Source of the DNA: Thermoclostridium caenicola
GTDB taxonomy: Bacteria > Bacillota > Clostridia > DSM-8532
Length of the DNA: 53,399 nt
Assembly: GCF_900142095.1 (NCBI RefSeq)
Contig: NZ_FQZP01000012.1
Span: 1-53,399 of the forward strand
Direction of reading: 5' to 3'
Part shown: piece by piece, positions 37,554 to 53,246 of the stretch
Layout of the letters: each line of letters begins with the position of its first letter
Position numbering within the stretch: position 1 is the first letter of the stretch
Notes under the pieces: generated by a model
The model's database searches: none
Seen by the model: the letters and a program-made list of their open reading frames with translations, nothing else
What the model was told of the DNA's origin: nothing
Made by a program: the position numbers and the translations under genes

Positions 37554-37890
37554 TCATCAAATAGTGTGCGCAATGCAATGCCATACCTCCCGATTTAATG
37601 CCAATCGGTTCAAGGTATGTGTCTCAGTTTGAAAAATAGTTTTCCTATGTATAGTTTAGTTGGTTTCACTCTCGATAATTGAACGGACAGTGCAATACCT
37701 GTTGCCGCTCAGCCTACCGAGAGCGTCCAATTTGGACCAAAATTAATGGTTGACACCCAGGCAATCGGCCTCGGTATAACGATATTGATCCGGTAATAAA
37801 TAGAAAATCAAGTTATTTACTCCGCAAGAGTGGTAAATAGTATAAAAAGATAGTTCTACTGTATCAGTGAAGGATAGTTGGTGTTATTGT

Positions 37891-40299
37891 ATGCAATATA
37901 TAGCACACTTCAGAGAAACTGATAAGGCTATTCATGAATTGAGCGTTCATCTCTTAGATGTTGCTGCAAAATGTGATGAGTATGGTTCTAGAATAGGCAT
38001 TGGCAAAATTGCCAGGCTAGCAGGTGTCCTGCATGATATGGGGAAGTTTAGCGATGAATTTCAAGACTATATTCGATCAAAAATGAATACCCCCATGCAA
38101 GATAATCAGGAAGAACCTCTAAGTAAAATAGATCACGGTAAAATAGGAGCCCTTTATATCTTTAATAAATTTCATGATTCATGCAGTGTTTCAGAGAAAA
38201 TCTTATCTGAAATATTAGCTATGGTTATTAGCTATCATCATGGTGGGCTTAATGATTTTATAACTATGGATTGTCAAGTTCCTCTGCTTAATCGTCTCAA
38301 ACCAGAAAATCTTGATACACAATATTATACATGTATTAATCGTTTTTTTGATATTGTCTGCAGTGAAAAAGATATAGATAGCCTTTTCTCAGAAGCATGT
38401 AATGAGTTGAACAATATTATGAGAAAAGTAAAAACAGAGAGATTATCTGTTTCGTTTACGCTTCATTTATTGATAAAACATCTATATAGCATTGTAATAG
38501 ATTGTGACAGATTGGATACTTATTTATTCATGGAGGGAATAGAGGAATTACCGTGCTTGGATACAAGTGATCTCTGGAAAAATTATCTAATGCGACTTGA
38601 GGATAAAATTAATGAGTTAAAGGCAAAACCGACGAACACTATTTTAGAAGAAAGAATTAAAAAGTTAAGACTTAAAGTTTCTGACGAATGTGCGGATTTT
38701 GCACAAAGAGAAAGAGGTATTTATTTGCTCACTGTACCAACTGGAGGTGGTAAAACTTTTTCTAGCTTAAGGTTTGCTTTAAAACATGCAATAAAGCACG
38801 GCATGAAAAAGATAATTTATGTTCTTCCATTTACTACTATTATTGAGCAAAATGCAAGTGAGGTCAGGAATGTACTTAATTGTGCTGATAATCTCTTAGA
38901 GCATCATTGCAATGTAATACAAACAGAACATGAAAAATATAAGCTATTGGTTCAGCGTTGGGATTGTCCTATTATTTTCACAACCATGGTTCAGTTTTTA
39001 AATACTTTTTTTGAATCTGGAACTGTCTCAATACGAAGATTCCATCAATTAGATAATTCAATATTGATATTCGATGAGATTCAAGCATTACCAATTAAAT
39101 GTATTTCATTATTTAACGATACAATCAATTATCTTAATAAAATATGTCATTGCACTATTGTTTTGTCTTCTGCTACACAACCTAATTTATCGGAGGTTGT
39201 CAGACCAATTATGATTTCTGATAGTCCCAATATTATTTCGACCCCTTCAAAACTTTTTACTGAATTTAAAAGGATGAACGTTATCCCTCGACTTATTGAG
39301 GGGGGATACACAGTAGATACGGTAGTAGACTTTGTTTATAATCTGAAAGCTCGCTATAACAGTGTATTAGTAATATTAAATACTAAAAAAGCAGCAGAGA
39401 AAATATATAAAGTTGCAGAAGAACGTAATGAAGGTAATATCAATATCTATTATTTAAGTACAAATCTATGTCCTGCTCATAGAAAAAAGGTGATTAGTGA
39501 AATCAAGGATAAGCTGAAATCTAATGAACATATTATTTGTATTAGTACACAGCTAATAGAAGCTGGTGTAGATATTAGTTTTGAAACCGTAATTAGAAGT
39601 TTGGCCGGACTTGATTCTGTAGCGCAGGCATCAGGTAGAGGAAATAGGCATGGAGAGGGGGAAATAAAAGAGACCTACATAATAAATGTCAGGGATGAAG
39701 TGCTTAAGAATTTGAAAGAAATAGAACTTGGACAAAAGCATACCCGTACAATACTACACGAATATAGTAACAATCCCGAAAAGTTTGATAATGATTTATT
39801 ATCCCCGGCTGCAATCCTTCAATATTACAAATACTATTATTCAGATTCAGAAATAAGCACTCAAATGGATTATTATTGTAAAGAAATAAACGAAAAACTG
39901 TACAGCATATTATCAGGTCAAAAGCAAAAGGAAATGGCATACGAGGACTTGACGGGAAAGCAATATCCTTTTCAGCTTCTTCATATGTTCAGAACTGCTG
40001 CTGATAATTTTAGGGTAATTGATGATAACACAAGAACTGTTTTAGTACCATATGGTGAGGGAAGACGAATAATAACTGATTTATTGGGAAGTAAATCACT
40101 TTCTGAAAAGTTAGAATGTCTGAAAGAGTTGCAGCAGTACGCCGTAAACATTTTCGAAAGTCAATTCAGGCTATTGGAAGAAAAAAGAGCTTTTGTCAAT
40201 TCTCCAATTGATGGAGTATTAATCCTGAAAGATGGATTTTATCATAGCAAATTAGGTGTTATAGAAGAAAGCAATATGGAACTACTCTTATATGAATAG
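37891..40299 (+). CDS. cas3: CRISPR-associated helicase/nuclease Cas3 (type I-C, HD domain fused)
   Basis: The effector nuclease recruited by Cascade; it nicks and unwinds target DNA. From ATG 37891 it has 802 residues. The HD nuclease domain lies first, with LAGVLHDMGKFSDEFQDYI (His48-Asp49) and the later VISYHHGG. The SF2 helicase follows: Walker A TVPTGGGKTFSSLRFA, DEAH-type box IFDEIQALP, SAT motif VLSSATQP, and QASGRGNRHGEG as motif VI. A GTG 24 bases upstream (37867) is possible, but MQYIAHFRE is the usual beginning. It is separated from cas5c by 196 bases that hold a second promoter, so cas3 is transcribed apart from the Cascade genes. Confidence 0.97.
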   Translation: MQYIAHFRETDKAIHELSVHLLDVAAKCDEYGSRIGIGKIARLAGVLHDMGKFSDEFQDYIRSKMNTPMQDNQEEPLSKIDHGKIGALYIFNKFHDSCSVSEKILSEILAMVISYHHGGLNDFITMDCQVPLLNRLKPENLDTQYYTCINRFFDIVCSEKDIDSLFSEACNELNNIMRKVKTERLSVSFTLHLLIKHLYSIVIDCDRLDTYLFMEGIEELPCLDTSDLWKNYLMRLEDKINELKAKPTNTILEERIKKLRLKVSDECADFAQRERGIYLLTVPTGGGKTFSSLRFALKHAIKHGMKKIIYVLPFTTIIEQNASEVRNVLNCADNLLEHHCNVIQTEHEKYKLLVQRWDCPIIFTTMVQFLNTFFESGTVSIRRFHQLDNSILIFDEIQALPIKCISLFNDTINYLNKICHCTIVLSSATQPNLSEVVRPIMISDSPNIISTPSKLFTEFKRMNVIPRLIEGGYTVDTVVDFVYNLKARYNSVLVILNTKKAAEKIYKVAEERNEGNINIYYLSTNLCPAHRKKVISEIKDKLKSNEHIICISTQLIEAGVDISFETVIRSLAGLDSVAQASGRGNRHGEGEIKETYIINVRDEVLKNLKEIELGQKHTRTILHEYSNNPEKFDNDLLSPAAILQYYKYYYSDSEISTQMDYYCKEINEKLYSILSGQKQKEMAYEDLTGKQYPFQLLHMFRTAADNFRVIDDNTRTVLVPYGEGRRIITDLLGSKSLSEKLECLKELQQYAVNIFESQFRLLEEKRAFVNSPIDGVLILKDGFYHSKLGVIEESNMELLLYE

Positions 40300-40381
40300 C
40301 CGCCTGTATGTATCATAAGAAATATACAAGCGGCAATTCATAATCTCCATTTTAAAATTTCAATCCACATCCTAGGATGAC
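40299..40381 (-). ncRNA. Candidate mini-crRNA (CreR-like cas-regulating RNA), minus strand
   Basis: Reading leftward from 40381: GT, a 4-bp stem CATC/GATG with loop CTAG, then TGGATTGAAAT (40367-40357). The array repeat has the same GT, an 8-bp stem (CGCTCCCC/GGGGAGCG) with loop GTAT, and the identical 11-nt handle TGGATTGAAAT. Guide sequence follows from 40356 (TTTAAAATGGAGATTATG). A hairpin (40334-40324 with 40309-40299) could end the transcript. No second repeat is seen. An extended -10 promoter places the start at about 40381. Cas5c, which cuts I-C repeats at the base of the stem, could release a crRNA-like guide. Expression and processing are inferred. Confidence 0.75.
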
Positions 40382-40387
40382 GAAATA

Positions 40388-40416
40388 ATTATACCATACA
40401 ATAATCTCGTTTTCTA
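40388..40416 (-). promoter_or_regulatory. Extended -10 promoter of the mini-crRNA (minus strand)
   Basis: On the minus strand TGGTATAAT (TGn + consensus TATAAT, 40396-40388) lies 17 bases from TAGAAA (40416-40411). Six or seven bases downstream is the first G of the mini-repeat at 40381. It diverges from the cas5c promoter, the two -35 boxes being adjacent. Confidence 0.7.
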
Positions 40417-40417
40417 G

Positions 40418-40446
40418 TTGACATAATAAACCAGTTGTTCTATTAT
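40418..40446 (+). promoter_or_regulatory. Promoter of the cas5c-cas8c-cas7-cas4-cas1-cas2 operon
   Basis: Consensus TTGACA (40418-40423) and TATTAT (40441-40446) are 17 bases apart. Transcription would start near 40453, about 43 bases before the cas5c ATG. Confidence 0.75.
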
Positions 40447-40448
40447 TG

Positions 40449-40485
40449 TAAATAAAATGATGCATATAATTTCTATTTTAAAGAA
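40449..40485 (-). other. Candidate Cascade operator: TTC PAM plus protospacer matching the mini-crRNA
   Basis: On the minus strand TTC (40485-40483) is followed by TTTAAAATAGAAATTATATG (40482-40463). Compared with the mini-crRNA guide, positions 1-8, 10, 11 and 13-17 are identical; 9, 12 and 18 onward differ. TTC is the known type I-C PAM. The site covers the predicted transcription start and leader of the cas5c operon and abuts its ribosome binding site. Short seed-proximal matching permits binding without cleavage in known creR/creA cases. Confidence 0.7.
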
Positions 40486-40495
40486 AGGGATATAT

Positions 40496-41224
40496 ATGAG
40501 AAATCAGATAACATATAAGGTTTATGGTAAATATGCATTATTTACTGATCCGGTTACGAAAATCGGAGCTGAAAAGATGAGTCTTACTTTACCAACATAT
40601 CAGGCTCTTAAGGGCATAACGGAAAGTATATATTTCAAACCTACAATTATCTGGTACATAGATAGTGTACGCATTATGAAACCAATAAAAACTGAGTCGA
40701 AAGCGGTACGTACACTTAAACCTGGTGGAGGGAATGATCTATCCTATTATACTTATTTAAGTGATGTTGAATATCATGTCAAGGCACATTTTGAGTTCAA
40801 CATGAACAGACCTGATCTCGCTGAAGATCGAAATGAAAACAAGCATTATTGTATAGCCAAAAGATGCATTGAACGAGGTGGAAGGCGCGATATTTTCTTA
40901 GGAGCACGTGAATGTCAAGCGTATGTCGAACCATGTGAATTTGATGAGGGAGAAGGATATTATGATAACATGGGTGAAATGGATTTTGGTCTTCAATATC
41001 ACTCCATTGTATATCCCGATGAACAGTCCAGCCATGAAATGACCGTAAAGTTCTGGTACCCCAAAATGGTTAATGGTGTCATCAACTTTTGTAGACCGGA
41101 AGAGTGTCCAAAAGAAAGAGTTATTTCTAAGATGACACCTAAAAAATTCATTAATGGTAGGAACTTTACGATAATCGATGTCTCTGAGTTTCTAGATGAT
41201 GCTTGTGGGCAAAGGGGGGATTAA
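40496..41224 (+). CDS. cas5c: CRISPR-associated Cas5c (Cas5d), crRNA-processing endonuclease
   Basis: In type I-C this subunit replaces Cas6: it cuts pre-crRNA at the repeat stem and caps the 5' handle in Cascade. The 242 residues from ATG 40496 (behind AAAGGGA) place Tyr46 in TESIYFKP and Lys116-His117 in NENKHYC. These are exactly the positions of the catalytic residues known for the Bacillus halodurans enzyme, which supports this start over an in-frame ATG at 40457. YGKYALFTDPVTKIGAEKMS is the expected N-terminal fold. It is the first gene of the Cascade operon; cas8c begins three bases after its stop. Confidence 0.96.
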   Translation: MRNQITYKVYGKYALFTDPVTKIGAEKMSLTLPTYQALKGITESIYFKPTIIWYIDSVRIMKPIKTESKAVRTLKPGGGNDLSYYTYLSDVEYHVKAHFEFNMNRPDLAEDRNENKHYCIAKRCIERGGRRDIFLGARECQAYVEPCEFDEGEGYYDNMGEMDFGLQYHSIVYPDEQSSHEMTVKFWYPKMVNGVINFCRPEECPKERVISKMTPKKFINGRNFTIIDVSEFLDDACGQRGD

Positions 41225-41227
41225 TAA

Positions 41228-43123
41228 ATGAGTTGGCTTGTCATGTTGAATGAGACGTATAACAATGTGTTTGAAAAAGGAACGAATGGACCATTGCCAA
41301 TTGCGCATACAACACAGAATGCTGATATTGAAATTATTGTTGATTCAGATGGCAATTATGTAAGTAGTAGGGTGTTGTTTAATGACAAGGAGACACTTAT
41401 TCCATGCTCTGAGGCATCTGCTAGTCGCTCAGGGAAGAATCCTGTTTCTCATCCACTACATGATAAGCTTCAATATGTAGCCGGTGATTATTCGCATTTT
41501 GGGGGGAATAAAGGTTCCGAGTTTCATAAAAAGTATATGGAGCAATTAGAGGAATGGTGTAGTTCGGCTTATTCCAATAAAAAGGTATGTGCAGTTTATA
41601 ATTATTTGAAAAAAGGATGTCTAGTTCATGACCTGATTAGAGAAGGTATTCTGGTATGTGATAATAACAATAAGCTGATAGATAAATGGACTGGAAATAA
41701 AGACGAAAAACCTCCAATCTTCAAAACACTGGCTAGTAAGCAAAATCAAAGTGATGCATTTGTTAGATTTGGAGTTGCCGGGTTCGATAATATTGTCAAC
41801 CTTTGGGATGATCCAAAGGTATGTCAGGACTATATAGATTATTATCTCAGTAAGCAAAAAGAACGGCAATTGTGCTATATAACAGGAGAAATGGTGCCAT
41901 GCTCAAATAATCATCCTAAAAAAATAAGGCATCCTGCTGATCAGGCAAAAATTATATCTGCAAACGATGAATCCGGATTTACATACAGGGGTCGTTTCAG
42001 ATCGGCTGAAGAAGCTGTGCAAGTGGGCTATGAGGTATCACAAAAGGCGCACAATGCCCTTAAGTGGTTAATAGCGAAACAAGGCAAAAGCTTTGGCGAT
42101 AAGGTGTTTTTACTATGGGGAACAAAAGCTCAAAAAGTGCCATCCCTTACAGGAGACACATTTGATGAGGCTTTTCTATATGAAGATGAATTAAACTCTA
42201 ATGAACCGATGATATATACGAAGGAAGAAATAGCTCGAAGATTTAACAGAGCAATCTCTGGTTACAAGGCTAGCATTGATAGTCATACAGATTTGGCGTT
42301 AATCGGATTGGATTCTGCTACTCAAGGCAGATTATCCATAACATTTTATCGCGAGTTTCATGGTACGCAGGGAAATGAACTATTTGACAATATCAAAGCC
42401 TGGCATGAGGAGTGCTCTTGGATTCACACATACAAGAAACACAATAATAAGTTAATAGAATTTATCGGTGCACCTGCTCTTGACGACATTGCAAAGGTTG
42501 CATTTGGAACTGAACAGAATAGAGTGATAAGGGCTGAGAGCAAATTGATTGGTGCTACTGTGGAAAGATTATTACCCTGTATTGTAGATCATGCCCATAT
42601 TCCGGTTGATATTGTCCATGCTTTGGTCAGAAAAGCAATCTGTCCCCAAAACTATAAAGAGAATTATAACTGGCGCAAAGTTGTGACCATAACATGTTCT
42701 GTCTATAAAAGACACAGATTTGAAAAAACCAATTCTAAGGAGGTATGGAACGTGAATGTAGATAATGATAGCATGGATATTGTTTACAACTGTGGACGAC
42801 TATTGGCTGTTGCAGATGAAATTGAGAGGCATGCGTTATGGCTTCAGAACGAGGATAGAGAAACGAACGCCATAAGGTATTTCACGAAATTTGCTGTTGA
42901 ACCCTGCAAAACCTGGAGAATTATTAATGACAAGCTTGTTCCTTATATCAGACGTTTAGGAAGCAAAGCGGCAATGTACTGCAGGATAAAAGAAGAGATA
43001 TCAGCAAAAATACCACCGGATAAGTTTGCTGAGTTAAAAAATCTGGATGGAAGAATGATCTTAGGGTTTGATGCACAAAAAAATGAGTTTAGGAGAATAA
43101 AATCAGGAGGGGATAAAAAATGA
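41228..43123 (+). CDS. cas8c: CRISPR-associated Cas8c (Csd1), large subunit of type I-C Cascade
   Basis: The large Cascade subunit reads the PAM and helps open target DNA. The 631 residues match the family order: an N-terminal MSWLVMLNETYNNV, PIAHTTQNADIEI, LHDKLQYVAGDYS, then CYITGEMVPCSNNHPKKIRH and SANDESGFTYRGRF, which are typical of Cas8c. LALIGLDSATQGRLSITFYRE marks the later domain. In type I-C an internal start inside cas8c can make a separate Cas11c small subunit; AAGGAGG at about 42737-42743 is followed by an in-frame GTG near 42752 (NVDNDSMDIVY), a reasonable candidate. Its stop overlaps cas7 ATG. Confidence 0.95.
   Translation: MSWLVMLNETYNNVFEKGTNGPLPIAHTTQNADIEIIVDSDGNYVSSRVLFNDKETLIPCSEASASRSGKNPVSHPLHDKLQYVAGDYSHFGGNKGSEFHKKYMEQLEEWCSSAYSNKKVCAVYNYLKKGCLVHDLIREGILVCDNNNKLIDKWTGNKDEKPPIFKTLASKQNQSDAFVRFGVAGFDNIVNLWDDPKVCQDYIDYYLSKQKERQLCYITGEMVPCSNNHPKKIRHPADQAKIISANDESGFTYRGRFRSAEEAVQVGYEVSQKAHNALKWLIAKQGKSFGDKVFLLWGTKAQKVPSLTGDTFDEAFLYEDELNSNEPMIYTKEEIARRFNRAISGYKASIDSHTDLALIGLDSATQGRLSITFYREFHGTQGNELFDNIKAWHEECSWIHTYKKHNNKLIEFIGAPALDDIAKVAFGTEQNRVIRAESKLIGATVERLLPCIVDHAHIPVDIVHALVRKAICPQNYKENYNWRKVVTITCSVYKRHRFEKTNSKEVWNVNVDNDSMDIVYNCGRLLAVADEIERHALWLQNEDRETNAIRYFTKFAVEPCKTWRIINDKLVPYIRRLGSKAAMYCRIKEEISAKIPPDKFAELKNLDGRMILGFDAQKNEFRRIKSGGDKK
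42752..43123 (+). CDS. Possible internally translated Cas11c small subunit within cas8c
   Basis: Inside cas8c the sequence CTAAGGAGGTATGGAACGTG holds a strong ribosome binding site. In-frame GTG 42752 lies eight bases behind it. It would yield about 123 C-terminal residues (VNVDNDSMDIVYNCGRLLAV onward), mostly helical, the size of known Cas11c products in type I-C systems. It is not a separate gene but a second product of cas8c. An ATG of a different frame at 42745 does not encode Cas8c sequence. Translation is inferred from the site alone. Confidence 0.5.
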   Translation: MNVDNDSMDIVYNCGRLLAVADEIERHALWLQNEDRETNAIRYFTKFAVEPCKTWRIINDKLVPYIRRLGSKAAMYCRIKEEISAKIPPDKFAELKNLDGRMILGFDAQKNEFRRIKSGGDKK

Positions 43124-44004
43124 GTGTACTTCAAAACAAAATTGATTTTGTTGCTATTATTTCAGTTAAGAACGCTAACCCAAATGGGGATCCATTGAAC
43201 GGTAATTTACCCAGAACAACTTATACCGGTTTGGGTGAGATTTCGGATGTATGTATTAAGAGGAAGATAAGGAATCGGCTTTTGGATATGGGGGAGAAAA
43301 TATTCGTTCAATCAGATGACAAGAACGTGGACGGATATCAGTCATTACGTGAACGTGCTTTGGCTAATGAATTACTCGTAAAAGCAGAAAAAGCAAAAAA
43401 TAGGGATGAGTTTAAGCGAATTGCTTGTGAAAGCTGGTTGGATGTGCGTAGCTTTGGGCAAGTGTTTGCTTTTAAGAGTAAAAAAGAAGAAAAAGATGAA
43501 AGTGGAGATGGGGTATCTGTTGGTATCAGAGGGCCTGTCTCTATACATCCCGCCTTTAGTGTTGATCCCATTGATATTACCAGCATTCAGATTACAAAAA
43601 GCGTGAATAATGAATCGAACGACAATTCAAAAAAATCGTCTGATACAATGGGTATGAAACACCGTGTTGATTTTGGAGTATATGTTCTAAGAGGCAGCAT
43701 TAATGTTCAACTTGCAGAGTTGACCGGGTTTACAGAGGATGATGCAGAAAAAATAAAAGAGGCTATTCGTACACTGTTTGTCAATGATTCCAGTTCTGCG
43801 CGTCCAGAAGGAAGTATGGAGGTAGTAAAACTATTCTGGTTTAGGCATAATAATAAACTTGGTCAATATTCTTCAGCCAAAGTTCATAATTCTGTTGTAA
43901 TAACAAGAAAGCAAGGTGTAGAAACACCATCGTCAATTAATGATTATGAAATAAAATTAAATCCTTTGGCTAACCTAAGTGTTGAAGAATATGAAGGTGT
44001 ATAG
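43120..44004 (+). CDS. cas7: CRISPR-associated Cas7 (Csd2), Cascade backbone
   Basis: Several copies polymerise along the crRNA to form the Cascade backbone. The 294 residues begin with DFVAIISVKNANPNGDPLNG, the signature of the Csd2 group (NxNPNGDP). They include GIRGPVSIHPAFSVDPI and GMKHRVDFGVYVLRG, also typical. The ATG overlaps the cas8c stop (ATGA) with AGGAGGGG upstream. The 3' end overlaps the start of cas4. Confidence 0.97.
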   Translation: MSVLQNKIDFVAIISVKNANPNGDPLNGNLPRTTYTGLGEISDVCIKRKIRNRLLDMGEKIFVQSDDKNVDGYQSLRERALANELLVKAEKAKNRDEFKRIACESWLDVRSFGQVFAFKSKKEEKDESGDGVSVGIRGPVSIHPAFSVDPIDITSIQITKSVNNESNDNSKKSSDTMGMKHRVDFGVYVLRGSINVQLAELTGFTEDDAEKIKEAIRTLFVNDSSSARPEGSMEVVKLFWFRHNNKLGQYSSAKVHNSVVITRKQGVETPSSINDYEIKLNPLANLSVEEYEGV

Positions 44005-44653
44005 TGAAGAAGAATATCTAAATTTAGCAGGAATACAGCATTATGCCTTTTGTCCAAGGCAGTGGGCATTAATACATATTGAAAAGCAATGGCAAGATAA
44101 TCTGAGAACTGTAGAAGGCGAATTGCTCCATAAGAATGCTCACGAGGGACAAGCATTTGAAAAAAGAGGAGACATATTGATTACCAGGGGTATGCCTGTA
44201 TTTTCTGCATCTCTGGGAATAAATGGTGTCTGTGATGTTGTCGAATTCCACAAAGACATCGCAGGCGTTGAGTTGTTTGGAAGAGAGGGAAAATACATGC
44301 CATACCCCATAGAGTATAAGCGCGGAAAACCAAAGGAATCTGATATTGATATCCTACAATTAACAGCGCAAGCAATGTGCATTGAAGAAATGTTATGTTG
44401 TAAGGTTGAAATAGGATATCTCTTCTATGGCGAAATCAGGCATAGGCAGAAAATAGTAATAACTTCAGAGTATAGAAGCAAGGTAAGAGAAATAACTGAG
44501 CAGATGCATATGTGTTACAATCGGCAATACACACCAAAAGTAAAGCAAACGAAAAAATGCAATCTATGTTCCTTGAAAGATCTATGTGTTCCAGCACTCG
44601 GACGGTTCAGCACAGTTGAAAAGTATATAACTAAGATGATAGATGAGGATTGA
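43991..44653 (+). CDS. cas4: CRISPR-associated exonuclease Cas4
   Basis: This RecB-like nuclease trims prespacers and selects PAM-proximal ends with Cas1-Cas2. The 220 residues from ATG 43991 begin EEEYLNLAGIQHYAFCPRQW, giving the first iron-sulfur Cys. The nuclease core has PYPIEYKRGKPKESD and ILQLTAQAMCIEE, and the C-terminal KKCNLCSLKDLCVP supplies the last three cluster cysteines. A GTG at 43979 is an alternative start. It overlaps cas7 by 14 bases. Confidence 0.94.
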   Translation: MKVYSEEEYLNLAGIQHYAFCPRQWALIHIEKQWQDNLRTVEGELLHKNAHEGQAFEKRGDILITRGMPVFSASLGINGVCDVVEFHKDIAGVELFGREGKYMPYPIEYKRGKPKESDIDILQLTAQAMCIEEMLCCKVEIGYLFYGEIRHRQKIVITSEYRSKVREITEQMHMCYNRQYTPKVKQTKKCNLCSLKDLCVPALGRFSTVEKYITKMIDED

Positions 44654-44655
44654 AA

Positions 44656-45687
44656 GTGAAGAAATTATTAAATACTCTCTATGTTACATCCCCAAATAAA
44701 TACCTTGCCCTGGATGGAGAAAATGTTGTTGTTCTGGAAAGCAACGAAGAAGTGGGGAGAATACCTTTACACAATATTCAGGGGATTGTTACATTTGGGT
44801 ACATAGGAGCAAGCCCTGCACTTATGGGAGCCTGTGCTAGCAGGGATATTTCTTTATGTTTTTTGTCTTCTAGCGGTCGTTTTTTAGCTCGTATTGTCGG
44901 GTCAGAAACAGGAAATGTCGTGTTGCGTAAAACACAATATAGAATCTCAGATGACGAAAAAATGTGTACAGTAATTGCAAAAAACATGATTATCGGCAAG
45001 ATTTTTAATTCTCGATGGGTTATAGAAAGGGCTCTTCGTGATCATGCTTTACGGCTGGATGTAGAAAAACTCAAAAGAAAATCGGCCTTTCTTAAGGATG
45101 CTATCTTAAAAGTAAAATTGTGTACAGATACACAACAACTCAGAGGAATAGAGGGAGAAGCATCTAGTATATATTTTTCTGTTTTTGATGATTTAGTTCT
45201 TCAGCAGAAAGAAGATTTTTATTTTAAGAATCGTAATAAGCGACCTCCATTGGATAATTTGAATGCTCTACTCTCATTCTCATACACACTGCTTGCCAAT
45301 GAATGTGCGTCTGCATTGCAAACTGTTGGGCTAGATCCATATGTAGGTTTTTTGCATAAAGATAGACCAGGTAGAATGTCTCTAGCCTTGGATCTTATGG
45401 AGGAATTACGCTCTGTCTTTGCAGATAGATTTGTTCTATCACTTGTTAATAAAAAAATAGTTTCGCCAAATGGATTTTCAGTTAAAGAGAATGGAGCTGT
45501 AATCATGAATGATGAAACCAGGAAAATAGTTTTATCCAATTGGCAAGCAAAAAAGAAAGAGGTTATAACACATCCTTTTTTACAGGAAAAAGTTGAGTGG
45601 GGAATTGTACCACATGTACAGGCCTTGCTACTCGCCAGATATATCCGAGGAGATATTGACCAATATCCTCCATTCTTATGGAAATAG
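44656..45687 (+). CDS. cas1: CRISPR-associated integrase Cas1
   Basis: It inserts new spacers at the leader end of the array. The 343 residues from GTG 44656 (GAGG seven bases ahead) begin KKLLNTLYVTSPNKYLALDG, the usual Cas1c opening; TTG 44650 would add two residues. The active-site Glu is in RGIEGEASSIYFSVFD and the His and Asp are in FLHKDRPGRMSLALDLMEEL. Its end overlaps the in-frame extension of cas2. Confidence 0.97.
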   Translation: MKKLLNTLYVTSPNKYLALDGENVVVLESNEEVGRIPLHNIQGIVTFGYIGASPALMGACASRDISLCFLSSSGRFLARIVGSETGNVVLRKTQYRISDDEKMCTVIAKNMIIGKIFNSRWVIERALRDHALRLDVEKLKRKSAFLKDAILKVKLCTDTQQLRGIEGEASSIYFSVFDDLVLQQKEDFYFKNRNKRPPLDNLNALLSFSYTLLANECASALQTVGLDPYVGFLHKDRPGRMSLALDLMEELRSVFADRFVLSLVNKKIVSPNGFSVKENGAVIMNDETRKIVLSNWQAKKKEVITHPFLQEKVEWGIVPHVQALLLARYIRGDIDQYPPFLWK

Positions 45688-45695
45688 GTGATAGT

Positions 45696-45986
45696 ATGTT
45701 GGTATTAATAACTTATGATGTTAATACAGAAACAGAGAGTGGAAAAAAGCGTTTAAGAAAAGTAGCAAAGCAATGTGTAAATTATGGGCAGAGAGTCCAA
45801 AATTCTGTATTTGAATGCGTTATGGATGAGGCAAAATGCAGGCAAGTAAAAGAAATACTCCTAAAGATAATTGATGAGGAAAAGGATAGCTTGAGGTTCT
45901 ATTATCTCGGAAATAATTATAAAGGTAGAGTGGAACATTTCGGCGTTAAGAAAAGTTTTGACATTGAAGGTGATCTTATTCTTTAA
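45696..45986 (+). CDS. cas2: CRISPR-associated Cas2
   Basis: It forms the structural core of the Cas1-Cas2 integration complex. The 96 residues start MLVLITYDVNTETESGKKRL with the conserved Asp after the first strand. They continue CVNYGQRVQNSVFECVMDEA and GNNYKGRVEHFG. I chose ATG 45696, preceded by AGGTG; an upstream start at 45678 lies within cas1. It is the last cas gene; the CRISPR leader begins directly after its stop. Confidence 0.96.
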   Translation: MLVLITYDVNTETESGKKRLRKVAKQCVNYGQRVQNSVFECVMDEAKCRQVKEILLKIIDEEKDSLRFYYLGNNYKGRVEHFGVKKSFDIEGDLIL

Positions 45987-46159: not shown

Positions 46160-49100
46160 GTCGCTCCCCGTATGGGGAGCGTGGATTGAAATTATTTTGG
46201 GGCTGCTCTGCAAATTTTTTTTTAATGTCGCTCCCCGTATGGGGAGCGTGGATTGAAATATTTGTGCTGACAACCAACCTGCCACCGCCAAATATGTCGC
46301 TCCCCGTATGGGGAGCGTGGATTGAAATTCGGATTTGGGGCTACGTTTGAACACACCGGCCGTCGCTCCCCGTATGGGGAGCGTGGATTGAAATATAGGT
46401 CAAATATGTATCCTTATGCGTCATACTCGTCGCTCCCCGTATGGGGAGCGTGGATTGAAATATCAAGCGGACGCTCAGGGGGGCATAGCCCATGAACGTC
46501 GCTCCCCGTATGGGGAGCGTGGATTGAAATTGTTTGGTTACTGGTAAGGTGATTAATGTACGTGTCGCTCCCCGTATGGGGAGCGTGGATTGAAATCGAT
46601 GTTGATGGACGCAGTAACTCCTGCAAATCCGTCGCTCCCCGTATGGGGAGCGTGGATTGAAATATTTTTGAGCTGATTTGATAAAGCATCCAGCCCGGGT
46701 CGCTCCCCGTATGGGGAGCGTGGATTGAAATAACGAAATCCCAAACCTTTTTGCTTCCTCTCGCAGTCGCTCCCCGTATGGGGAGCGTGGATTGAAATAT
46801 CAATAGCAAATGCAAAACCAGCAAGCGGATTAACGTCGCTCCCCGTATGGGGAGCGTGGATTGAAATTTCTCTCCAGGTATGAAATATAAATGGTGCTGC
46901 AGAGTCGCTCCCCGTATGGGGAGCGTGGATTGAAATGCTATATATGTCCGGCATGATAAGTATGGCTAAAGTCGCTCCCCGTATGGGGAGCGTGGATTGA
47001 AATCATCAGGCAACCAAGCGGTGACTTTGTGTTGTCTGTCGCTCCCCGTATGGGGAGCGTGGATTGAAATGCTCTCGCAAGTGGAAAAGAACGGGACGAA
47101 CACTGTCGCTCCCCGTATGGGGAGCGTGGATTGAAATCATCTCGCCGAAGGAATATGCAATCTCAGGGGGAGTCGCTCCCCGTATGGGGAGCGTGGATTG
47201 AAATACCTACAAACTTAGCAACCAATGATACGTTGCCCTGTCGCTCCCCGTATGGGGAGCGTGGATTGAAATGGCACTTTACCTTTGAGCCTGTACCCCT
47301 TAGCCCGGTCGCTCCCCGTATGGGGAGCGTGGATTGAAATAGCTCTCGACTTAAAGTATTTTGCGTCCTGTTTAGTCGCTCCCCGTATGGGGAGCGTGGA
47401 TTGAAATATTTGGATATAGGATAACATATCTATGGCACTTGTCGCTCCCCGTATGGGGAGCGTGGATTGAAATATCAAACGCACGCTTAGGGGTGCGTAA
47501 AGTTTGGTCGCTCCCCGTATGGGGAGCGTGGATTGAAATCACTCACCATTGTAGTACCAAACTTTTATAAGCGTGTCGCTCCCCGTATGGGGAGCGTGGA
47601 TTGAAATATAAAACCACAAAACAATATGTAAATTGGTGTATTGTCGCTCCCCGTATGGGGAGCGTGGATTGAAATAATAAAGTTATCCGCTCTTACAGTA
47701 AACAAATATGTCGCTCCCCGTATGGGGAGCGTGGATTGAAATTTCTTTTGTCAAAAACACAGTTTTGCCGATGTCGTCGTCGCTCCCCGTATGGGGAGCG
47801 TGGATTGAAATTTAACTATCACCCATAAACTACCTAAAAATATGGTCGCTCCCCGTATGGGGAGCGTGGATTGAAATCGGGTTAAGGGTTACAAGTTAAA
47901 AGGCAAAGTGCCGTCGCTCCCCGTATGGGGAGCGTGGATTGAAATATCAAGTACAGCTGTAAGATCTACACCGGTCAAATGTCGCTCCCCGTATGGGGAG
48001 CGTGGATTGAAATAGGAGGGCCGCGACCTATTGAAAAATAGTATGCTGTCGCTCCCCGTATGGGGAGCGTGGATTGAAATTTTTGTTGAAGGTTCAATTC
48101 TGACATAGATTCTTTCGTCGCTCCCCGTATGGGGAGCGTGGATTGAAATACGAAACTATCAGACCCATCAACATTACCAACGGTCGCTCCCCGTATGGGG
48201 AGCGTGGATTGAAATGTAATTGTACGCACAATGACGCACAATATAACCGTCGCTCCCCGTATGGGGAGCGTGGATTGAAATTATGGAATCATACAAATAC
48301 TCCTTAAGGACGCAGGCGTCGCTCCCCGTATGGGGAGCGTGGATTGAAATGCCACCCTTGCCTACGAGAGCCGAAATGACAGCGTCGCTCCCCGTATGGG
48401 GAGCGTGGATTGAAATATTTGTCAACGAATATAGGCATTATATGGTAGCAGTCGCTCCCCGTATGGGGAGCGTGGATTGAAATAATGAATGCGCTGATAA
48501 ATCTTATATTGTATGAGTCGCTCCCCGTATGGGGAGCGTGGATTGAAATTAGCATAGGTCAATGGTTTTCCAATCTTATTTCGTCGCTCCCCGTATGGGG
48601 AGCGTGGATTGAAATCTCAAGGTATTCCTCGAACTCTGCCTTTAACGCAGGGTCGCTCCCCGTATGGGGAGCGTGGATTGAAATAATTGATGACATTGCT
48701 CTTTGTTGTTGCATATACGGTCGCTCCCCGTATGGGGAGCGTGGATTGAAATCAACGCTGTATCATCTCAACAAGCGCTATTGTCTTTGTCGCTCCCCGT
48801 ATGGGGAGCGTGGATTGAAATCATATTACATGGAAATTTGTCACAGCGAACCATAGTCGCTCCCCGTATGGGGAGCGTGGATTGAAATCCACTATGGCTT
48901 TTCTCTGCTTACGTTGCTGAGAGTCGCTCCCCGTATGGGGAGCGTGGATTGAAATAAGAGCATGGACTGCACCTTTTTTGCGGTGAGCGTCGCTCCCCGT
49001 ATGGGGAGCGTGGATTGAAATTTGTAGAAGGAAACCTCAGGAACAACGTTTATGAGTCGCTCCCCGTATGGGGAGCGTGGATTGAAATCCGGTTGATACC

Positions 49101-52100
49101 GGTACGCTCGGAGAGCTTGTCAGTCGCTCCCCGTATGGGGAGCGTGGATTGAAATATGATGTCCTTGATTGCCTTGCAATGGTCCTGGTGCTGTCGCTCC
49201 CCGTATGGGGAGCGTGGATTGAAATTTCTATGCTCCATCCACGAGAAAGACGAAGTTGCGTCGCTCCCCGTATGGGGAGCGTGGATTGAAATACCTACAT
49301 ACTTTACCACCAATGAAATATTGCCCGTCGCTCCCCGTATGGGGAGCGTGGATTGAAATCTGGGGTCGGCGGCCTTGGCCTGAATATCCCGGGTCGCTCC
49401 CCGTATGGGGAGCGTGGATTGAAATCACTTGTCTGTCATTAGCCTTATATCTAAACCTTGCGGTCGCTCCCCGTATGGGGAGCGTGGATTGAAATCACCC
49501 TGCCCCGTATTCGGGACGTTGGATTGTTGGTCGCTCCCCGTATGGGGAGCGTGGATTGAAATACTTTTTGGGCTGCGCTTGAATACGCCGGCGACAAGTC
49601 GCTCCCCGTATGGGGAGCGTGGATTGAAATTGCTCGTGAGCTGAACCCGCTTATAGAGGCAGGCGTCGCTCCCCGTATGGGGAGCGTGGATTGAAATCTA
49701 CCGCATGACGATACAGAACGGCGTCTACGGTGTCGCTCCCCGTATGGGGAGCGTGGATTGAAATTTGCCGGTATGGCAAAGATAAACGAATTCATGGTCG
49801 CTCCCCGTATGGGGAGCGTGGATTGAAATGACCAAGGTACAGTTTGCAGAGCCTAACGAAAGCGTCGCTCCCCGTATGGGGAGCGTGGATTGAAATATTC
49901 CAGGGAGAATACAAATCCACCATACATTGAGTCGCTCCCCGTATGGGGAGCGTGGATTGAAATGCTCTCGCAAACGGCGCAGTGGTGCAAAGCGATCCGG
50001 TCGCTCCCCGTATGGGGAGCGTGGATTGAAATAAGCAGACGGCACAATGACGCACTCGTGCAGGAAGTCGCTCCCCGTATGGGGAGCGTGGATTGAAATA
50101 CGGTCAGCACCGCTAAACCACAGAAACCGAGTTTCGTCGCTCCCCGTATGGGGAGCGTGGATTGAAATTCTCCGTCATAATCACCACCCTATCAGGTTTT
50201 TGTCGCTCCCCGTATGGGGAGCGTGGATTGAAATACTCCAACTATTATAGGGCTTACCACTGCAGGGGTCGCTCCCCGTATGGGGAGCGTGGATTGAAAT
50301 TTAAATAACCGCTTAAGTTTTAACATCTCTTTTTGTCGCTCCCCGTATGGGGAGCGTGGATTGAAATTGTGGTAAAATGTATAATGAGTAAACATGACCG
50401 CAGTCGCTCCCCGTATGGGGAGCGTGGATTGAAATCACCTGATTGAAGCCCCGCTGTGCGGAGCGGGGCGGGTCGCTCCCCGTATGGGGAGCGTGGATTG
50501 AAATTTCTTCTATCTGCTCCCATGTCAGCCCATTCACAGTCGCTCCCCGTATGGGGAGCGTGGATTGAAATTAAGAGAGGCAGCAAATCCGGACAAGCCG
50601 TTTTAGTCGCTCCCCGTATGGGGAGCGTGGATTGAAATCTATCAGCGAGCGGAATAACGCCTGCTTTTCCGCGTCGCTCCCCGTATGGGGAGCGTGGATT
50701 GAAATTACAATGCAAAAATGCTGGCGTGCCCATATTTGTTGTCGCTCCCCGTATGGGGAGCGTGGATTGAAATTACCATTGGGGGCCGCATGACTAAGAT
50801 TGAAGAGGAGTCGCTCCCCGTATGGGGAGCGTGGATTGAAATATCGACCTGGCCGCAGAAGTAACCGTCAGGGCCCGTCGCTCCCCGTATGGGGAGCGTG
50901 GATTGAAATGCATTCGGAGCCGTAGGTCGGGGGTTCAAGTCCCGTCGCTCCCCGTATGGGGAGCGTGGATTGAAATCATTCCTGACCGCGTCCGAGAGGC
51001 AGCGCGGCATTATGTCGCTCCCCGTATGGGGAGCGTGGATTGAAATCGCAACGCTCGCACAAACCATGTTTTGATATAAAGTCGCTCCCCGTATGGGGAG
51101 CGTGGATTGAAATCAGAATATAGTTTGGATGGCTCATTTTCTCGACGTCGCTCCCCGTATGGGGAGCGTGGATTGAAATTTACAAAAACGGCGTAGGTTA
51201 CGGAGCGTGGACGTCGCTCCCCGTATGGGGAGCGTGGATTGAAATTTACAAAAACGGCGTAGGTTACGGAGCGTGGACGCGTCGCTCCCCGTATGGGGAG
51301 CGTGGATTGAAATGCTGGCTGCCGCTTTTATACAGGATTGATGACGGTCGCTCCCCGTATGGGGAGCGTGGATTGAAATACCTTTGGACAAAGAACTATA
51401 TAAAGAACTGCTTCGTCGCTCCCCGTATGGGGAGCGTGGATTGAAATCCCGGCAGTACAACATCAATTAAAATATACTGGAAGTCGCTCCCCGTATGGGG
51501 AGCGTGGATTGAAATTGCGGTCCTCGGCGGTCTTGATCGCATGGTGTTTGTCGCTCCCCGTATGGGGAGCGTGGATTGAAATATCCTCGTCCAACCTGCT
51601 GACCGCCATTCTGGGATGTCGCTCCCCGTATGGGGAGCGTGGATTGAAATAATCCTCGGTCTCCGTTTGTCCACCCTGAACCTGGTCGCTCCCCGTATGG
51701 GGAGCGTGGATTGAAATTTCGGAGGAGTTTAAAAATTAAAATTTGAGAAGGGTCGCTCCCCGTATGGGGAGCGTGGATTGAAATTTAAGGTTGAAGGGCT
51801 AGAAGGATGCCCTATCACGTCGCTCCCCGTATGGGGAGCGTGGATTGAAATCTCCGAGCCAACGACATGCGCCGGGTCCAGGAGATGTCGCTCCCCGTAT
51901 GGGGAGCGTGGATTGAAATAATTATTATACGCAACTGGTGAAACCAAGCAGGGTCGCTCCCCGTATGGGGAGCGTGGATTGAAATCTTTTTTCGCGGGAA
52001 ATAAAAAGCATATGCTTACAAGTCGCTCCCCGTATGGGGAGCGTGGATTGAAATTATGTAAAGCCTAACATAATGCAGATGAACACCGTCGCTCCCCGTA

Positions 52101-52839
52101 TGGGGAGCGTGGATTGAAATCATTTCATTACACGATTTTTTACGCGCCAAAACGTCGCTCCCCGTATGGGGAGCGTGGATTGAAATCGCCAGAGATGATA
52201 ACTGAGATTTCGCAACAACGGTCGCTCCCCGTATGGGGAGCGTGGAGTGAAATCCCCCGGTAAATTAACTGTAAATGATGGTGGCTCGTCGCTCCCCGTA
52301 TGGGGAGCGTGGATTGAAATATCCTCGTCCAACCTGCTGACCGCCATTCTGGGATGTCGCTCCCCGTATGGGGAGCGTGGATTGAAATCCTTTCCCCAGC
52401 AAGCTCTACGCGTGCACCTATGGTCGCTCCCCGTATGGGGAGCGTGGATTGAAATATCAAGGGCCTCATTGTATACCTCAAGCTCCTGCGTCGCTCCCCG
52501 TATGGGGAGCGTGGATTGAAATTTGCTGGATATTGTCCATTGAAGCCTTGAATTCCGTCGCTCCCCGTATGGGGAGCGTGGATTGAAATGTGCCCTTGTT
52601 GAAGCTGAGATTGCCCGTGAGCGTCGCTCCCCGTATGGGGAGCGTGGATTGAAATAAAACGCAGGTCAAACAGGCAGACATGACGTGGGAGTCGCTCCCC
52701 GTATGGGGAGCGTGGATTGAAATATCCTGGATGGGCTGGTCCAGGTCGGGGTAATCCCGCCGCTCCCTTGCGGGGAGCACGGATTGAAATAGGTTCATCA
52801 TAGGTGTAAAAGAAAAAGGTGAGTGTCGCTCCCCATATG
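46160..52839 (+). CRISPR. Type I-C CRISPR array, about 98 regular repeats plus two degenerate distal ones
   Basis: The repeat is 33 bases: GT, stem CGCTCCCC, loop GTAT, stem GGGGAGCG, handle TGGATTGAAAT. Spacers are mostly 33-36 bases. By eye I count 98 regular repeats from 46160 to 52723, then a degenerate one ending at 52790 (GGATTGAAAT kept, stem altered) and a 5' half-repeat at 52825-52839 (GTCGCTCCCCATATG). One internal repeat (52221-52253) has GTGGAGTGAAAT. Decay at the far end and the cas2-proximal leader agree that the array is transcribed on the plus strand. Open frames on either strand here are repeat artefacts. Confidence 0.98.
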
Positions 52840-52901: not shown

Positions 52902-52930
52902 TTGACAAAACCTCATATTGACCTTATCAT
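52902..52930 (+). promoter_or_regulatory. Promoter of the tRNA-Leu gene
   Basis: Consensus TTGACA (52902-52907) and TATCAT (52925-52930), 17 bases apart and 20 bases before the tRNA. Confidence 0.75.
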
Positions 52931-52949
52931 ATTATTTGCATCAAATCAT

Positions 52950-53032
52950 GCGGACATGGCGGAATTGGCAGACGCACCAGATTTAGGATCTGGCGGGAAA
53001 CCGTGGGGGTTCAAGTCCCTTTGTCCGCACCA
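52950..53032 (+). tRNA. tRNA-Leu (anticodon UAG)
   Basis: The acceptor stem GCGGACA pairs with TGTCCGC and is followed by A and an encoded CCA (53030-53032). The anticodon stem CCAGA/TCTGG encloses loop TTTAGGA, with anticodon TAG at 52984-52986. A long variable arm (class II) and the T arm GGGGGTTCAAGTCCCTT are present. A terminator follows immediately. Confidence 0.97.
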
Positions 53033-53059
53033 AGTGAAGGGAAAACCCTTCACTTTTTT
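53033..53059 (+). terminator. Terminator of the tRNA-Leu gene
   Basis: AGTGAAGGG, loop AAAA-type, CCCTTCACT, then T6. It begins at the base after the tRNA CCA. Confidence 0.9.
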
Positions 53060-53246
53060 GTATGGACAAAGGGGCTTGAACTTTCGGCGTCGCAGGAGAC
53101 CGGAGCGTAAGCGAGGGTCGAATCAGAACCGCCGGCTCAGCCGGCGGTTTGTTCTGCCCCTATAAGGGGCTGTTACCAGCAACATCTCAAGATGTACTGA
53201 ATGAGTTTGCCAATCGCACGTTTTTTACTCACTAACACTAAAGGGT
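53060..53246. other. Non-coding end region of an IS200/IS605-type element
   Basis: It holds an inverted, near-identical copy (53064-53081) of the tRNA-Leu 3' part (53009-53026), then two hairpins: AACCGCCGGC/GCCGGCGGTT (53127-53149) and GCCCC/GGGGC (53156-53170). Such subterminal hairpins are usual at IS200/IS605 ends. No protein gene is seen. Confidence 0.5.

Follow-up and report, generated by a model that had tools for sequence, protein, structure and literature searches.

Standalone CRISPR repeats with a spacer-like part that matches cas promoters were reportedly described as CRISPR-derived regulatory elements by Shmakov et al. in 2023 (NAR). CreR RNAs (Liu et al. 2023, Cell Host Microbe, doi 10.1016/j.chom.2023.08.005) are described in reviews as autorepressing the cas genes of type I-B, I-E and V-A systems through partial complementarity to their promoters (PMC13131331), and as responding to crRNA abundance and to anti-CRISPRs (PMC12737573, PMC12948488). 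A type I-C case of CreR was not found in the literature searched, which excluded Liu 2023 and Shmakov 2023 themselves. The cas locus of Thermoclostridium caenicola contains an element whose sequence features match those of CreR, and it was therefore classed as a type I-C CreR, i.e., a cas-regulating RNA that, judged from sequence, most probably autorepresses the genes from cas5c to cas2 through Cascade.

The type I-C locus of T. caenicola and its solo repeat

The window, i.e., the whole stretch of DNA that was analysed, comprises 53,399 nt of T. caenicola (GCF_900142095.1, contig NZ_FQZP01000012.1, positions 1 to 53,399, forward strand) and contains a complete type I-C locus. All cas genes are on the plus strand. 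The helicase-nuclease gene cas3 (37867–40299; NCBIfam TIGR01587 and TIGR01596, above cut-off) is the upstream neighbour of cas5c (40496–41224; TIGR01876, 251.7 bits), the first gene of the operon proposed to be regulated, which further includes cas8c (csd1; 41228–43123; TIGR01863), cas7 (csd2; 43120–44004; TIGR02589), cas4 (43979–44653; TIGR00372), cas1 (44650–45687; TIGR03640) and cas2 (45678–45986; TIGR01573). The main CRISPR array (46160–52723, plus strand) has 98 repeats of GTCGCTCCCCGTATGGGGAGCGTGGATTGAAAT and spacers mostly of 33–36 nt. All repeats are identical (97/98) except a single-base variant, TGGAGTGAAAT, at 52221 near the distal array end, and the spacer ATCCTCGTCCAACCTGCTGACCGCCATTCTGGGAT is present twice (51550–51650 and 52288–52388) with identical flanking repeats. 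Just past the distal array end there is a tRNA-Leu gene (52950–53032); an ORF overlapping it (52902–53165) is unlikely to be a gene.

The gap between cas3 and cas5c is 196 bp long and contains, on the minus strand, a solo degenerate I-C repeat, GTCATCCTAGGATGTGGATTGAAAT (40357–40381). No other gene, including a toxin gene, was found in this gap. The solo repeat consists of a short stem (CATC/GATG) and the handle GTGGATTGAAAT, which is the same as the 3' end of the array repeat. The last 12 bases of the solo repeat agree with that end, while the stem is shortened. This is the arrangement known from CreR, a degenerate repeat-like unit inside the cas locus which retains the handle. The repeat is followed on the same strand by a 17-nt spacer-like part, the guide TTTAAAATGGAGATTAT (40340–40356). 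Since an extended -10 element (TGGTATAAT; 40388–40393, minus strand) ends 6 nt upstream of the repeat, the start of the RNA, the putative mini-crRNA, was predicted at the first base of the solo repeat (40381). Just past the guide there is a strong hairpin, GCCGC...GCGGC, without a U-run (40302–40336; fold of 40290–40400, minus strand, z = -3.85). It is likely to form the 3' terminus of the mini-crRNA and also, read on the opposite strand, that of the cas3 mRNA.

Guide and target in the window and in relatives

The guide matches the leader of the cas5c operon. The target on the protospacer strand, TTTAAAATAGAAATTAT (40466–40482, minus strand), adjoins the PAM TTC (40483–40485, minus strand), which reads GAA on the plus strand and is part of the Shine-Dalgarno region of cas5c. 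Guide and target are identical at 15 of 17 positions, including all of positions 1–8; they differ at 9 and 12, and the pairing stops after position 17. Both mismatches could wobble (rG:dT), because a guide G faces a T of the target strand at each of them. The PAM-flanked match, with its identity at 1–8, its 15/17 matches and its end after 17, had been claimed in the preliminary description and was confirmed; guide and target are also on the same strand as claimed there, but their spacing had been given as about 115 bp, and the starts of the two 17-mers are 126 bp apart. A promoter of the cas5c operon was predicted at 40418–40446 (plus strand; TTGACA-17-TATTAT, 11/12 consensus) with a start at about 40453. 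Since this promoter puts the target at about +14 to +30, the earlier placement of the site over the predicted start and leader of cas5c-cas2 was right, and the -10 is uncovered in this genome.

The match is specific. In the 53-kb window the leader target is the best non-self site for the guide, and the runner-up has four mismatches and lacks TTC. Genome-wide, zero-mismatch fits to TTTAAAATNGANATTAT comprised the guide itself and the leader target only. For the 115-bp leader, a site with at most two mismatches occurred in 12 of 20000 dinucleotide shuffles, and with an adjoining TTC in none (0/20000); for 800 bp the corresponding counts were 9/5000 and 0/5000. By the same matching test, no array spacer of the window matched the cas locus. 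A partial, PAM-adjacent complementarity of a guide to the leader of its own cas operon (here 15/17 with TTC), which is a trait of CreR, is thus established for this locus.

Relatives of cas5c were taken from related genomes and from public species genomes, and a pattern search for solo elements was added in two families, that of the window and that of G350. Together these gave solo elements with matching leaders from the window's family, where there are three such genomes (the window, G022 and G031), from a second Clostridia family (G145, G424, G426, G350, G505, G508, G514, G520 and G506), from a third Clostridia family (G368 and L135), and from three Bacilli, namely Paenibacillus (L110), Brevibacillus panacihumi (L056) and Pontibacillus litoralis (L105). 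Because the guide of G426 is the same as that of G145, G426 was omitted from the counts, leaving 15 distinct guides; the 15 distinct solo elements span at least four bacterial families, and the locus counts are not fully independent since several loci share ancestry. A phylum-wide pattern search (398 genomes; TATAAT...TGGATTGAAA) gave, among the matches inspected, nothing besides the window but arrays or chance matches, and a search of 150 genomes in the family of G368 gave no element beyond G368 itself. Among the cas5c loci examined, the element is limited to long cas3-cas5c gaps (about 160 bp or more in members), and most loci have a gap of <60 bp without the element. Its absence from most I-C loci sampled indicates that the element is not essential. 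In Eubacterium sp. S35_Bin1 (L044), four degenerate I-C repeats about 60 bp apart were seen on the cas5c strand, about 60–240 bp upstream of cas5c; they form a mini-array in which three of the four are followed by nearly the same spacer, TCCAGACACGGCGGAAAAACAGAAC. No target for these duplicated spacers was found in the region searched.

In all loci with mapped neighbours (13/13) the solo repeat lies antisense between cas3 and cas5c, and most of these loci adjoin a full I-C operon and an array. The handle is near-invariant while the stem varies, being kept through paired changes (CATC/GATG, CAGC/GCTG, CAGAG/CTCTG, CTAG/CTAG, CGCT/AGCG; pairs judged by eye). In most members the -10 sits 6–7 nt upstream of the repeat. 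That TATAAT and the handle do not vary is partly an effect of the search pattern in the second family, but not in loci found via cas5c. A hairpin follows the guide in 16/16 loci folded and begins 8–26 nt past the handle.

Co-variation of guide and target in homologous loci had been proposed in the preliminary description as a check, and the two do co-vary. Each of the 15 distinct guides pairs with its own cas5c leader with 1–4 mismatches in 17, despite the differences between guides. The summed mismatch score was 22, whereas 100000 random re-pairings averaged 78 and never fell below 50, so that none was as good (0/100000); the site choice in this test gave TTC a one-mismatch bonus, which slightly favours TTC. 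A same-strand test without the PAM bonus (13 loci; Pontibacillus is unmatched there) also gave 0/100000 re-pairings as good. The PAM was TTC for 12 of the 15 guides, TTT for two and TAC for one. G508 (TAC), G514 (TTT) and G506 (TTT), with leaders L250, L251 and L253, are natural PAM variants that keep the guide match.

The mismatches are not spread evenly. Their counts at positions 1–17 over the 15 guides were 0,0,0,0,0,12,0,1,1,0,0,9,1,0,1,4,5, so that positions 1–5, 7, 10, 11 and 14 were never mismatched and 21 of the 25 mismatches within positions 1–15 fall at 6 or 12. The nominal binomial probability of this clustering is 3e-15, a value to be read with the shared ancestry of many loci in mind. 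Counted by lineage, a mismatch at 6 or 12 is present in 8 of 9, the exception being G424; the nine lineages are three in the window's family, the main clade of the second family taken as one, G424, G368, Paenibacillus, Brevibacillus and Pontibacillus. In the guides of class 1 effectors every sixth base is flipped out (PMC11127173), which would leave positions 6 and 12 free to drift. The earlier suggestion that mismatch 12 of the window falls on such an unread position is in agreement with the relatives. It is extremely improbable that the element is a functionless remnant of a former array, or of a self-targeting spacer that has decayed. The solo repeat is short and degenerate, as a relic could be, but promoter, handle, stem pairing, hairpin and guide-target match all persist through sequence drift, and the target site is nothing like a full-length protospacer.

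The position of the target, as read from predicted promoters, differs among lineages. In the window's family it lies in the leader beside the Shine-Dalgarno sequence, to which the GAA complementary to TTC belongs. In the second Clostridia family it is mostly over the -10 or between the -35 and the -10, in G368 it begins at the -10, and in the three Bacilli (Paenibacillus, Brevibacillus and Pontibacillus) it is just upstream of the -35, on the opposite strand in Pontibacillus and Brevibacillus. For the window, G022 and G031, whose targets are in the transcribed leader and whose guides are complementary to the mRNA, a plain antisense RNA could be considered, which would cover the ribosome-binding site by pairing with the leader of the cas5c mRNA, blocking translation without Cascade. 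However, the RNAs of Pontibacillus and Brevibacillus are not complementary to that mRNA, and since these two Bacilli have the site on the other strand, antisense pairing is not the shared mechanism. In other members, where the -10 is the site or the site precedes the -35, it is partly outside the mRNA. Nor would an antisense RNA have cause to keep TTC and the CRISPR handle, or to differ from its target at 6 and 12. This explanation was thus considered very unlikely. A moving site with a constant relation of guide, target and PAM instead favours DNA recognition by Cascade.

A second question is which promoter Cascade would act on. The sites of Pontibacillus, Brevibacillus and Paenibacillus lie between the two divergent promoters, and for cas3, which the preliminary description had credited with a separate promoter, a promoter scan of its strand gave no clear consensus promoter. 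Cascade might therefore bind the site but act mainly on the divergent promoter of the mini-crRNA itself or on cas3 rather than on cas5c. In the Clostridia, however, it is the promoter or leader of cas5c that the site overlaps, at a distance from the promoter of the mini-crRNA, and this possibility appears very unlikely. Separate transcripts for cas3 and cas5c would fit the hairpin behind cas3 and the cas5c promoter. It is likely that a stand-alone regulator with a single repeat is present in the type I-C systems of several Bacillota families, that its target has moved across the promoter (leader, -10, spacer region, upstream of the -35, either strand) while the match was kept, and that the mismatch pattern, free at 6 and 12 and fixed elsewhere to about position 15, is an evolutionary footprint of reading by I-C Cascade.

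Proposed autorepression by Cascade

The autorepression of the cas5c operon by Cascade that was predicted in the preliminary description is supported by the co-variation, the PAMs and the mismatches at 6 and 12. We infer the transcription and processing of the mini-crRNA, its loading into Cascade, and the binding, repression and sensing that would follow. A short RNA would begin at the first base of the solo repeat, keep the Cas5c hairpin and the handle, carry a guide of about 17 nt and end in the hairpin. Cas5c, the Cas5 protein being the pre-crRNA nuclease of type I-C (PMC11127173), would process or bind this RNA, and the I-C Cascade would assemble on it. Having recognised TTC and, in the promoter or leader of cas5c, the site of partial complementarity, the complex would block transcription from cas5c to cas2.

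Several of these steps have precedents. Repression by I-C Cascade in E. coli needs just one repeat and one spacer, opaD was repressed using a TTC-flanked site over a -10, and TTC and TTT are PAMs used with the I-C system of Neisseria lactamica (PMC10865793). In the I-B system of H. hispanica, spacers of 20–24 nt repress without interference or primed adaptation, and spacers of 16 to 20 nt repress weakly, leaving 44–67% of expression (PMC10989794). Because the pairing of the mini-crRNA is only about 17 nt long and includes unread mismatches, destruction by Cas3 is not expected, and because spacers of 16 to 20 nt act weakly in H. hispanica, the repression could be modest. In the window the predicted start precedes the target, and a Cascade that is held weakly there may be a poor roadblock.

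The mini-crRNA is very probably a built-in volume control of the immune system. The loop would sense free Cascade: when free Cascade is plentiful, it would shut down its own operon, and when array crRNA is abundant or an anti-CRISPR blocks Cascade, repression would be relieved. If true, RNA-guided autorepression of CRISPR systems extends to type I-C, which is among the commonest subtypes and is used as a tool, and in these bacteria the expression of cas genes would be subject to feedback from I-C arrays, anti-CRISPRs and engineered I-C systems. The co-variation set is a ready test bed, as it offers pairs of guide and target that can be exchanged together and a clear prediction for the free positions 6 and 12.

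Comparison with described CRISPR-derived RNAs

Solo I-C repeats are known to act as RNA anti-CRISPRs (RacrIC1, PMC10651486), and the element shares with Racrs a solo I-C repeat with its own transcription, predicted in the case of T. caenicola. Look-alikes of the same build were also seen in viral contigs (L179, 1029–1075; L185; L214; L223, 1888–1926; L242, 13406–13446; L202), in which solo I-C-like repeats lie 6–7 nt behind TATAAT; a terminator-like hairpin comes after those of L223 and L242. These viral repeats are candidate Racrs; no convincing match was found between their guides and the sampled cas5c leaders, and the handle-plus-guide pattern of the window was not found in the viral contigs. 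The host element could thus be thought of as a Racr or decoy whose solo repeat ties up Cas proteins and whose guide is incidental. However, Racrs are borne by phages or mobile elements and need no target, whereas in every locus mapped the element lies within the host cas operon. Its guide is conserved together with a PAM-flanked host site, with which it co-varies and which a decoy does not need. A role as Racr or decoy was therefore judged highly improbable.

The CreA antitoxin RNA of CreTA is similar to the element described here in that a degenerate solo repeat guides Cascade by a partial match to repress a promoter. The differences are that no toxin gene is present here and that the target is the cas operon, preceding cas5c. 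The natural single-guide RNA of Cas9 (Workman et al. 2021, cited in PMC10651486) is similar in that an effector reportedly represses its own promoter via a shortened guide match, but it is a type II RNA of tracrRNA form and unrelated.

The closest correspondence is with CreR as described in reviews. Common to both are a crRNA-like RNA encoded by a mini-CRISPR within the cas locus, a partial match to the cas promoter, the lack of a toxin gene and autorepression by the cognate effector, the last being a proposal here. In contrast to the CreRs reported in I-B, I-E and V-A systems, the T. caenicola element belongs to type I-C, in which Cas5c replaces Cas6, and it has a single repeat and a guide of about 17 nt closed by a hairpin.
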